The notes beneath the pieces were generated by a model. That model had not been told where the DNA came from and ran no database searches. It was given only the letters and a program-made list of their open reading frames with translations. The translations under genes and the position numbers were made by a program. A stretch of 64,000 bases of DNA from Micromonospora globbae (GTDB lineage: Bacteria > Actinomycetota > Actinomycetes > Mycobacteriales > Micromonosporaceae): the NCBI RefSeq assembly GCF_003610785.1, contig NZ_RAQQ01000020.1, positions 1 through 64,000 on the forward strand, given 5' to 3'. Positions 37,631-56,466 of the stretch are shown piece by piece. The stretch's first letter is position 1. Each line of letters starts with the position of its first letter.

Positions 37631-38830
37631 TCAGCCCTTCACGCACACCACCTGCTTGAGGTGCGCGACCACCTCGACCAGATCCTCCTGCTGCGCCATC
37701 ACCTCGGCGATGTCCTTGTACGCGGCGGGGATCTCGTCGACCACCCCGGCGTCCTTGCGGCACTCCACGCCCGCGGTCTGCGCCACGAGATCCGCGGTGC
37801 CGTAGGTCCGCTTGGCCTGCGCCCGCGACATCCGCCGCCCCGCACCGTGCGACGCCGAGCAGTACGCGTCCGCGTTGCCCTTCCCGCGCACGATGTACGA
37901 ACCGGTGCCCATCGAGCCGGGAATGATGCCGAGGTCGCCCCGGCCGGCCCGGATCGCGCCCTTGCGGGTCACGAGCACCTCCACGCCGCCGTAGCTCTCC
38001 TCCGCCACGTAGTTGTGGTGGCAGCTGATCGGCTCGTCGTAGCGCACCTGCGGGAACCGCTCCCGGACGACGCCGCAGAGCACCGCCAGCATCACGGCCC
38101 GGTTGCGCCGCGCGTACTCCTGCGCCCACCACAGGTCCCGGCGGTAGGCGTCCATCTCCGGCGTGCCGGCGAGGAACACCGCGAGGTCCCGGTCGGGCAG
38201 GTCGGCGTTGTGCGGCAGCCGCCGGGCGACCGCCATGTGCCGCTCGGCCAGCTCCTTGCCGATGTTGCGGGAGCCGGAGTGCAGCATCAGCCAGACCCGC
38301 CCGGAGTCGGCGCCGCCCTGCTCCAGGCAGACCTCGATGAAGTGGTTCCCGCCGCCGAGGGTGCCCAGCTGCCGCTGCGCGCGGACCTCGAGCTGCGCGA
38401 CCCCCCGGTGCAGGTCGGCGAACCGGGCCCAGAAGTCGGCCCAGCCGCCCTGCTCCAGCCCGCGCACCCGGCGCGGGTCGACCGGCTCGTCGCGCTGCGC
38501 GAAGCCCACCGGGATCGCCGCCTCGATGGCCGAGCGCAGCCCGGCCAGGTCGTCGGGCAGGTCGGCGGCGGTGAGCGAGGTGCGCACCGCGGACATGCCG
38601 CACCCGATGTCCACGCCGACCGCCGCCGGGGACACGGCCTGCCGCATGGCGATCACCGAGCCGACCGTGGCGCCCTTGCCGAAGTGCACGTCCGGCATCA
38701 CCGCGACACCCTCCACCCAGGGCAGCGCGCCGATGTTGCGCAGCTGCCGGGCCGCCTGCGGCTCGATGGCGTACGGGTCGGTCCAGACCCGGACCGGTGC
38801 CCGGGTGCCGGCCAGCGTGGTGAAGCCCAT
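37631..38830 (-). CDS. rtcB: RtcB RNA-splicing ligase
   Basis: A 399-residue protein, close to the 408 of E. coli RtcB, with no intein. Metal- and GTP-site blocks are all present: MPDVHFGKGATVGSVIAM (about 45-62), GVDIGCGMSAVRT (about 72-84), GGGNHFIEVCLEQ, MLHSGSRNIG, CHHNYVAEE and SHGAGRRMSRAQAK with the guanylylated histidine. RtcB joins 2',3'-cyclic-phosphate and 5'-OH RNA ends, the kind left by anticodon-loop nucleases, using GTP and Mn. The ATG at 38830 follows GAGGAG. Two tRNA-like genes lie only 35 and 140 bases upstream on the same strand, so they may share its transcript. No archease or RtcA gene is in the window. Confidence 0.95.
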   Translation of the reverse strand: MGFTTLAGTRAPVRVWTDPYAIEPQAARQLRNIGALPWVEGVAVMPDVHFGKGATVGSVIAMRQAVSPAAVGVDIGCGMSAVRTSLTAADLPDDLAGLRSAIEAAIPVGFAQRDEPVDPRRVRGLEQGGWADFWARFADLHRGVAQLEVRAQRQLGTLGGGNHFIEVCLEQGGADSGRVWLMLHSGSRNIGKELAERHMAVARRLPHNADLPDRDLAVFLAGTPEMDAYRRDLWWAQEYARRNRAVMLAVLCGVVRERFPQVRYDEPISCHHNYVAEESYGGVEVLVTRKGAIRAGRGDLGIIPGSMGTGSYIVRGKGNADAYCSASHGAGRRMSRAQAKRTYGTADLVAQTAGVECRKDAGVVDEIPAAYKDIAEVMAQQEDLVEVVAHLKQVVCVKG

Positions 38831-38865
38831 GGTCGTCTCCTCGTGTCGATGCGGATGGTGTCGGA

Positions 38866-38938
38866 GCGGCTGGCCGGAGTCGAACCGGCGACCTTCACCG
38901 TGGCGAGGTGACGCGCTGCCAGGCTGCGCTACAACCGC
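38866..38938 (-). tRNA. Atypical tRNA-like gene 1 (nominal GCC anticodon, C33)
   Basis: 73 bases fold into a full cloverleaf: acceptor GCGGTTG/CAGCCGC (one G-U), D-stem GCGC/GCGC with A14, G18, G19 and A21, anticodon stem TCACC/GGTGA, variable AGGTC, T-stem GCCGG/CCGGC with a canonical TTCGACT loop. The anticodon loop is TCGCCAC, giving nominal GCC (Gly), but position 33 is C, not the near-universal U. The discriminator would be U and no CCA is encoded. It is therefore unlikely to be an ordinary translating tRNA. The 3' end lies 35 bases before the rtcB start codon, and a second tRNA-like gene is 32 bases upstream. Confidence 0.75.
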
Positions 38939-38970
38939 GAGACGTGCGGCGCCCGGCGGCGCCGACGCGT

Positions 38971-39041
38971 GAGCCGTACGGGATTCGAACCCGTGACCTC
39001 CCGGGTGAGAACCGGGTGAGCTTCCGCTGCTCCAACGGCCC
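38971..39041 (-). tRNA. Atypical tRNA-like gene 2 (nominal CUC anticodon)
   Basis: 71 bases give a complete cloverleaf: acceptor GGGCCGT/ACGGCTC (one G-U), D-stem GAGC/GCTC with a 7-base loop keeping G18-G19, anticodon stem CCCGG/CCGGG, loop TTCTCAC (U33, anticodon CUC, nominally Glu), variable AGGTC, T-stem ACGGG/CCCGT with loop TTCGAAT. Position 9 is G, the discriminator A, and the genome does not encode CCA. Body and acceptor do not look like the usual actinobacterial tRNA-Glu. It pairs with tRNA-like gene 1 upstream of rtcB. It may be a functional isoacceptor, but the context suggests a specialised RNA. Confidence 0.78.
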
Positions 39042-39092: not shown

Positions 39093-39126
39093 AAAAGCCG
39101 CCCGGACCCCGGCGGGGTGGGCGGCT
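39093..39126 (-). terminator. Rho-independent terminator of the small basic ORF
   Basis: Read on the minus strand, AGCCGCCC and GGGCGGCT pair around an ACCCC...GGGGT inner stem and are followed by TTTT, a classic terminator and rare for this window in having a T-run. It lies about 20 bases after the stop of the 43-codon gene at 39146, which supports that gene being real and sets it apart from the tRNA-like/rtcB unit. Confidence 0.75.
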
Positions 39127-39145: not shown

Positions 39146-39277
39146 TCAGTCGCGCCGCCTCACCCGGTGCCGGCCCCCCACGTACCGGCGCTGACCCAGG
39201 ACCCGTTCCGTTGTGGACAGCCACGCACCGCCGCGCGGCGTGGGCCGCGTGGACCGGATGGTGGCGTGCGCTGGCAC
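39146..39277 (-). CDS. Small basic protein upstream of the rtcB locus
   Basis: A 43-residue frame from GTG 39277 with AGGGAGG 6 bases upstream, ending TGA, followed by a true T-run terminator. The product is strongly basic and arginine-rich: MPAHATIRSTRP at the start, then AWLSTTERVLGQRRYVGG and an RHRVRRRD tail. I do not recognise a family; the charge suggests RNA or DNA binding or a ribosome-associated protein. Being followed by the tRNA-like pair and rtcB on the same strand makes a link with RNA metabolism attractive, but this rests on position. The ribosome site plus terminator are the main support for it. Confidence 0.5.
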   Translation of the reverse strand: MPAHATIRSTRPTPRGGAWLSTTERVLGQRRYVGGRHRVRRRD

Positions 39278-39400
39278 GGCGTCCTCCCTGGGATGATCAG
39301 GTGACCTTGCGCCGACGACGGTATGCGGGACGGGCCCGGGCCGGCAATCGATATTCGCCGCGCCACCGCGCGCCGGCTACCGTTCACGATCGTGGCCCTC

Positions 39401-56273: not shown

Positions 56274-56300
56274 GACCAGCGAACGCCGCCGGGGTCCGGA

Positions 56301-56406
56301 CCTCCGGGCCCCGGCGCGCGTGGTTCGGGCCTCCGGGCCCCGGCGCGCGTGGTTCGGGCCTCCGGACCCCGGCGCGCGTGGTTCGGGCCCACGGACCCCG
56401 GCGGGC
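56301..56406. repeat. 29-bp tandem repeat, about 3.6 units
   Basis: Units begin at 56301, 56330, 56359 and 56388 with the pattern CCTCCGGGCCCCGGCGCGCG followed by TGGTTCGGG. The first two are identical; the third has one change and the fourth is partial and diverged. The array follows the uvrA-like stop by 28 bases. Each unit contains a GGGCCC-type dyad, so it may serve as a terminator between convergent genes. Confidence 0.8.
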
Positions 56407-56466
56407 GCCACGGCGGCGCGGGACAGGGCGGGGCCGGCCTTCGGCCGATCCGGCCGGGGCGGTTTC

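Follow-up and report, generated by a model that had tools for sequence, protein, structure and literature searches.

A tRNA pair upstream of a second rtcB gene in Micromonospora globbae appears to be the remainder of an accessory tRNA array under joint control

Introduction

Two tRNA genes that precede an rtcB gene of Micromonospora globbae appear, from comparison with related genomes, to be what is left of an accessory tRNA array; a second rtcB gene is embedded in this array and seems to be switched on jointly with it. It is likely that the pair and rtcB belong to a translation-stress operon, in which a WhiB7-type promoter and a leader attenuator would govern the supply of replacement tRNAs together with a repair ligase. 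tRNA arrays, RNA repair by RtcB and WhiB7 attenuation are each known singly. Our search of the literature, which reached few subscription papers and preprints and so gives weak evidence of absence, found no report of tRNA arrays that embed rtcB or of tRNA arrays controlled by an attenuator. A shared promoter and attenuator would connect tRNA arrays, RNA repair and intrinsic antibiotic tolerance, and bears on the function of accessory tRNA arrays and on the occasions when most bacteria use RtcB. The DNA analysed, here called the window, is the stretch of 64,000 nucleotides at positions 1-64,000 of contig NZ_RAQQ01000020.1 (assembly GCF_003610785.1) in a genome (G000) of 7.09 Mb and 95 contigs.

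The tRNA pair and the second rtcB gene

Both tRNA genes lie on the minus strand, which is also the strand of rtcB, and directly before it, as the initial annotation had proposed and as ARAGORN and Rfam family RF00005 confirmed. The gene nearer to rtcB is a tRNA-Gly(GCC) located at 38865-38938 by Rfam (58.7 bits) and at 38863-38938 by ARAGORN, and the other is a tRNA-Glu(CUC) with U33, A37 and C38, located at 38970-39041 (63.0 bits) and 38969-39041, respectively; both cover model positions 1-71 of 71 and score above the RF00005 gathering score of 29. The gap from rtcB is 34 nt to tRNA-Gly and 139 nt to tRNA-Glu, with 31 nt separating the two tRNAs. Rfam gave 52 tRNA matches in the genome, which holds, besides the pair, another two genes each for Gly(GCC) and Glu(CUC); other tRNAs for both codons are thus available elsewhere, and the pair consists of extra copies. 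Rescue of rare codons was set aside since both anticodons duplicate housekeeping genes.

Most of the features by which the pair had first been singled out were found as described, some of them read by eye, including C33 and the anticodon GCC in tRNA-Gly, the anticodon CUC, G9 and 7-nt D-loop in tRNA-Glu, and the lack of an encoded CCA in both. Several of these turned out to be ordinary, as only 15 of the 46 distinct housekeeping tRNA sequences encode CCA and 31 do not, the discriminator U of tRNA-Gly is shared by the housekeeping Gly(GCC), and G9 is present too (by eye) in housekeeping Asp and fMet tRNAs. C33 is truly unusual, since all 46 distinct housekeeping sequences of the genome have U33; this base, a usual tRNA trait that is no Rfam criterion, is absent in the window tRNA-Gly and present in tRNA-Glu. 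The perfect fold attributed to tRNA-Gly holds in the covariance-model alignment but not in the minimum-free-energy fold, which is without a standard anticodon arm (z -1.24). Compared by eye with the housekeeping Gly(GCC), the window tRNA-Gly has an identical anticodon stem and a loop that differs only at positions 33 and 38, where C33 and C38 replace U33 and A38. A further ARAGORN call in the window, a tRNA-Pro(cgg) at 56319-56402, is probably false, falling within four tandem copies of a 29-bp repeat (56293-56407) and having no Rfam support.

The rtcB gene (37631-38830, minus strand) encodes a protein of 399 aa that covers positions 1-426 of 426 of the PF01139 profile with 415 bits. The other RtcB of the genome (559 bits, at G000:C24:20481-22228) adjoins an archease gene, and the window RtcB is therefore a second, separately placed ligase without a neighbouring archease.

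tRNA arrays around rtcB in the Micromonosporaceae

Relatives of the locus were drawn from two sources. Among named RtcB relatives, 80 of 588 were kept and ARAGORN was run on their rtcB loci; within the Micromonosporaceae, 350 genomes were searched, RtcB was found in 209 at E <=1e-100, and 108 rtcB loci were read from these 209 genomes in order of score, with some lower ones, using flanks of 1.5 kb in 30 loci and of up to 5 kb in 78. When a tRNA was counted as adjacent if it lay on the same strand at most 700 nt before or 500 nt after rtcB, 38 of the 108 family loci, the window's included, had adjacent tRNAs and 70 kept rtcB with none called, so that the tRNAs are dispensable. At 75 loci with an RtcB at most 74% identical, ARAGORN called no tRNA on the rtcB strand closer than 1 kb, the nearest being 1.3 kb away (locus L154); set against the 38 family loci, this argues that the adjacency is not due to chance.

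The fullest arrangement in the genus, Trp-Pro-Glu-Gly-[rtcB]-Arg-Gln-Leu-Leu-Arg-Cys, comprises 10 tRNAs besides the housekeeping set (L240), of which type of dense array the window retains just two. The isotype order around rtcB is constant in the genus, and in close relatives tRNAs occur on both sides of rtcB, as called by ARAGORN in Micromonospora yasonensis (Pro, Glu, Gly, rtcB, Arg, Gln, Leu, Arg) and Rhizocola hellebori (Trp, Ala, Gln, Leu, Tyr, rtcB, Arg). No tRNAs were called by ARAGORN at the rtcB locus of M. mirobrigensis (RtcB 89% identical), and a locus in another genus (L258) yielded 23 ARAGORN calls, including an Arg(tcg) that lies 2.5 kb off and is doubtful. The pair itself, Glu followed by Gly upstream of rtcB, recurs at 19 of the 108 family loci, the copy in L235 being 2 kb off, and is thus neither absent from other rtcB loci nor universal.

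The distribution of the tRNAs on the rtcB tree (FastTree, with local support) is patchy, the presence of tRNAs requiring 13 changes, 11 of which are forced by well-supported branches, as compared with a mean of 31.7 after shuffling; the window falls on a supported branch that comprises seven loci, each of which retains Glu, Gly or the two together. Neighbouring genes recur as well. In a set of 83 loci, made up of 78 family loci and five named loci, 58 have one or more of eight window neighbours, whether or not tRNAs are present, most frequently an esterase gene upstream or an MFS transporter gene downstream, and 25 have none within the flanks read. Copies that look degenerate by eye were seen for Gly in L173, L244 and L254, for Trp in L213 and for Glu in L249. 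An ancestral array around rtcB has probably been eroded repeatedly; tree counts cannot separate gain from loss, and loss is preferred because the same set of tRNAs is unlikely to have been gained several times in an identical order and because degenerate copies are seen.

Two local variations were also recorded. In L182, L204 and L253 the gene directly before rtcB, some 55 nt from it, resembles tRNA-Ala(TGC); it measures 69-70 nt, and its D-arm region is very short. A gap of ~1 kb separates tRNA-Gln from tRNA-Arg downstream of rtcB in L194, L198, L199 and L215, and in L194 it contains opposite-strand ORFs which, by eye, resemble a small membrane protein and a helix-turn-helix protein.

Conservation of the pair and of C33

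In the five genomes of the window's branch that carry both tRNA genes, mean identity was 98.9% for Glu and 98.0% for Gly, compared with 75.9% and 79.8% for the spacers and 82.7% for the third positions of rtcB. The conservation extends beyond the tRNAs, as the 150 nt upstream of the pair, containing a terminator and part of a leader ORF, were 91.5% conserved. Judged from these identities, the pair are genuine tRNA genes kept by selection. This makes it unlikely that they are decaying relics, left unused from an acquired array beside an rtcB gene that is kept for its own sake. Such decay is suggested by the 70 family loci that are missing adjacent tRNAs and by the degenerate copies, but within the window's clade the two tRNA genes vary far less than the spacers and the third positions of rtcB, and both score well as tRNAs by Rfam.

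C33 is found in 16 of 21 Gly(GCC) genes upstream of rtcB, with U33 in 5, and also in the Gly(GCC) of the L258 array from another genus. More widely, a base other than U33 was present in 33 of 196 distinct array-type tRNA sequences, a set that also covers stand-alone arrays and contains a few ARAGORN miscalls. Altered anticodon loops such as these may confer resistance to anticodon nucleases, by analogy with phage tRNAs whose anticodon-loop mutations have been proposed to do so (PMC10264068). The phage tRNAs described there resemble the window tRNA-Gly in being extra tRNAs with an anticodon loop unlike that of the host copies; the window tRNAs differ in being chromosomal, and by Pfam none of the six neighbouring window proteins tested is a phage protein.

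Leader ORF, terminator and the proposed control of the array

Upstream of the pair, on the same minus strand, lie a promoter, a leader ORF and a terminator which had been overlooked in the initial annotation. The leader ORF (39146-39277) encodes an Arg-rich peptide of 43 aa, starts with GTG after GGGAG and ends with TGA. An intrinsic terminator detected by a terminator scan (39093-39125; -23.7 kcal/mol, z -2.87) is located between the leader and the tRNAs, 51 nt before tRNA-Glu. The sequence GGCGGC just before the leader stop (39154-39159) can pair with the 5' arm of the terminator and is a candidate antiterminator. The duplex between this arm and the final 42 nt of the leader, compared with shuffled sequences, gave a mean z of -1.16 over 70 loci and -1.83 in the window; covariation was uninformative, the terminator core being nearly invariant, and the pairing is suggestive only.

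The coupling of leader and terminator was assessed by a frame test in which start and terminator were found independently of the stop codon, using a promoter expression written after viewing sequences. In all 73 testable loci, frame 0 reached a stop 38-62 nt before the T-run, as compared with 1/73 for each of frames +1 and +2, and the lengths from start to terminator, taken modulo 3, were spread over all classes (29, 29 and 15 loci). The 35 of 108 loci left out comprised 21 with no promoter-plus-start match and 14 with no terminator match. Leaders were assigned to 87 loci, and to two more by hand, giving 89 of 108, with start motifs and a filter on the beginning of the peptide that were written after seeing examples; the frame test was run without this filter. 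A terminator was found in 70 of these 89 loci, and the stop lay 45-56 nt from the T-run in 65 of the 70. A short ORF closely before an intrinsic terminator, ahead of an operon, is the arrangement of a leader-peptide attenuator; it was found at 73 of 73 testable loci and has, as read from the DNA, the anatomy of ribosome-mediated attenuation.

The terminator scan reported no site between the tRNAs and rtcB in the window; the accompanying promoter search knows only sigma-70 consensus sites and also missed the WhiB7-type promoter. With no terminator between them and with a common promoter, leader and terminator upstream, both tRNAs and rtcB are probably carried by one transcript. To this extent the initial annotation, which had linked the tRNA genes to rtcB, stands; its further suggestion of a dedicated decoy, sensor or guide pair is not supported. 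RtcB acts on RNAs cut in the anticodon loop, and the adjacency to rtcB and the C33 of tRNA-Gly would suit tRNAs that serve as anticodon-nuclease substrates and control rtcB instead of translating. It is improbable that they do, since the genes belong to an array of up to 10 tRNAs in the genus, with rtcB flanked on both sides by tRNAs of many isotypes whose order is constant, and homologues of the Glu gene occur in arrays that lack rtcB; moreover, the leader and terminator already offer control, and exist also at rtcB loci without tRNAs. A parallel had been drawn with the Salmonella rsr-yrlBA-rtcBA operon, in which a tRNA-like RNA likewise adjoins rtcB. The genome of the window differs in having no match to Ro60 (TROVE) or RtcR, and the window has no Y RNA match, by which the parallel with a Y-RNA/Ro60 RNA-repair operon was rejected.

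There is similarly little probability that the product of the leader ORF is a small basic protein with a function of its own, with the terminator ending its transcript and the tRNAs and rtcB placed under another promoter. The good ribosome-binding site and start, and a pN/pS of 0.64 for the leaders of stand-alone arrays (11 sequences, one of differing length being unpaired), would be expected of such a protein. The leader peptides of rtcB loci, which are less conserved than those of the stand-alone arrays, have a pN/pS of 1.14 (255 pairs), that is, no purifying selection, and on this ground a conserved protein at rtcB loci was rejected; the narrow spacing between stop and terminator likewise speaks against it, as does the lack of a second promoter-like or terminator-like site near the tRNAs in a sigma-70-only scan that also missed the WhiB7-type promoter. 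A pN/pS of 1.14 fits an attenuator but weakens the case for a codon-specific sensor. The least probable reading, in which two extra tRNAs raise the dosage for GGC and GAG, common codons in GC-rich genomes, and stand before rtcB by chance, agrees with Rfam scores that are normal for tRNAs but not with the two further copies of each gene, with tRNAs recurring beside rtcB too often for coincidence, or with a regulatory region common to the loci.

A promoter resembling the WhiB7 type

The proposed translation-stress operon would be transcribed from a promoter at 39318-39356 (minus strand) that resembles the WblC/WhiB7 type and consists of GAATAT (39351-39356), CGA, TTGCCG as the -35 element, 18 nt and TACCGT as the -10 element (39318-39323). 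It has one mismatch to the published WblC consensus, GAAAWY-3 bp-TKGMNN-16..19 bp-TANNNT (PMC7157823), and is the only site with at most one mismatch on either strand of the window. Among the leader-bearing rtcB loci, 25, 71 and 88 of 89 have a site with <=1, <=2 and <=3 mismatches, respectively, against 0, 0 and 4 in 1.13 Mb of background. The exact consensus had no hits in the genome of the window. Among the 80 named rtcB loci, a stricter scan that required TANNNT found two, L079 from the window's group and L134. With the -10 element relaxed to [CT]ANNNT, a post hoc change made after viewing five sequences, 23 of the 75 rtcB loci outside the window's RtcB group had a match (21 of them in Streptomyces) and 52 had none, the background being 2 in 827 kb. 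These Streptomyces promoters (L086, L095, L098, L106, L110, L122 and others) read GAAAAC-N3-TTGC[CT]G-N19-CACAAT upstream of rtcB, which suggests that rtcB may be under WblC control in Streptomyces.

Six Wbl proteins are encoded in the genome of the window. One of them, L274, is WhiB7-like, with GVWGG and RPRGRPRK, and has an AT-hook that we take to mark it as WhiB7. Its gene alone of the six has a promoter-like match of the WblC form, with one mismatch, ~0.5 kb upstream. The tRNA-rtcB operon may depend on WhiB7. In Streptomyces, WblC was described as activating 288 genes, tRNAs included, and wblC itself as subject to uORF attenuation (PMC7157823). The regulon described there shares with the window the promoter layout, the uORF attenuation (of wblC) and, with six tRNA genes among its targets, the type of gene controlled; it differs in that rtcB is unnamed, with 0 occurrences in the main text of the study.

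Stand-alone and plasmid tRNA arrays

The same regulatory elements accompany arrays that lie apart from rtcB. Fourteen stand-alone arrays of the genus that begin with Trp were compared (L042, L266, L278-L285, L288 and L291-L293), of which 11 have a WblC-type promoter with at most one mismatch and 12 a homologous leader; in eight further array loci (L276, L277, L286, L287, L289, L290, L297 and L303) a Trp array start was not reached. The 12 homologous leaders (L266, L278-L285, L288, L292 and L293) encode 42-44 aa and are mostly followed by a terminator before the first tRNA. L042 has a promoter match with no leader found, and L291 has neither. An rtcB gene is listed for all 14 genomes, on another contig or more than 0.6 Mb from the array. 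In L267, from another family, no promoter match with at most one mismatch was found, and a leader and terminator were recognised by eye.

All 20 amino acids are present within 43 residues in five of the 12 stand-alone leaders, with 19 in three and 18 in four, these leaders being related and not independent; for one such peptide the chance of containing all 20 is ~9e-4 under the window composition. The leaders of L257, L258 and L267, from other genera or another family, contain 19, 18 and 18 amino acids, with chances of 0.007, 0.058 and 0.043, respectively. With 18-20 amino acids in 43 residues, the loss of almost any tRNA could trip a switch based on such a leader. The diversity of rtcB leaders is not raised, with a mean of 14.2 amino acids at tRNA-bearing (n=34) and 14.6 at tRNA-less loci (n=55) against about 15.0 at random, and so the observation on all 20 amino acids does not extend to the window. 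The rtcB leaders are rich in Arg, and at tRNA-bearing loci also in Trp and Gln; Arg, Trp and Gln are isotypes encoded by their arrays.

In six actinobacterial plasmid arrays (L305-L310), neither such a promoter nor a homologous leader was found in 700 nt upstream of the first called tRNA, a position that may not be the start of the array. One of these plasmids, Curtobacterium pS16 (L307), carries an array of 30 tRNAs, preceded by a WhiB family regulator and with an ATP-dependent RNA ligase near its end; RtcB is encoded ~12 kb beyond the array on the same plasmid.

Proposed mechanism and relation to known systems

The array and rtcB would form one operon, in which the WhiB7-type promoter is followed by the leader-peptide attenuator. 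During free translation, a ribosome that has reached the leader stop would cover the GG(C/U)GGC sequence, allowing the terminator to form and transcription to stop ahead of the tRNAs. Stalling of the ribosome within the leader, caused by an antibiotic or by loss of a tRNA, would leave GG(C/U)GGC free to pair with the 5' arm of the terminator, upon which RNA polymerase would read through. Read-through would yield replacement tRNAs, some with altered anticodon loops, which would presumably be charged and used in translation, together with RtcB, which would reseal tRNAs cut in the anticodon loop. A broader and more tentative proposal, which we consider possible but somewhat doubtful, is that the Micromonosporaceae have a dedicated tRNA-damage response, in which leader attenuators that sense tRNA depletion control nuclease-resistant replacement tRNAs and a repair ligase.

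In function the closest counterpart is found in Anabaena PCC 7120, where a single repressor keeps an operon of 26 tRNAs silent, and rtcB as well, until translation is under stress, the two forming one regulon that is freed by translation-targeting antibiotics (PMC10272220). As described there, rtcB lies apart from the trn operon, the two being divided between chromosome and megaplasmid, and the repressor is the RHH protein TrcR (PMC10272220), unlike the window locus, in which rtcB is placed inside the array and control looks like that of a promoter with an attenuator. The tRNA array units of mycobacteria resemble the arrays described here in being dense accessory tRNA clusters of Actinobacteria, and differ in that the terms RtcB, ligase and promoter have 0 occurrences each in the main text of the report concerned (PMC5966550). 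RtcB is also encoded by phages, with 655 records, two at 60-80% identity and 653 under 60%; in Rhodococcus phage Weasels2 the RtcB gene lies among scattered tRNAs, which makes it a loose parallel to the window locus.
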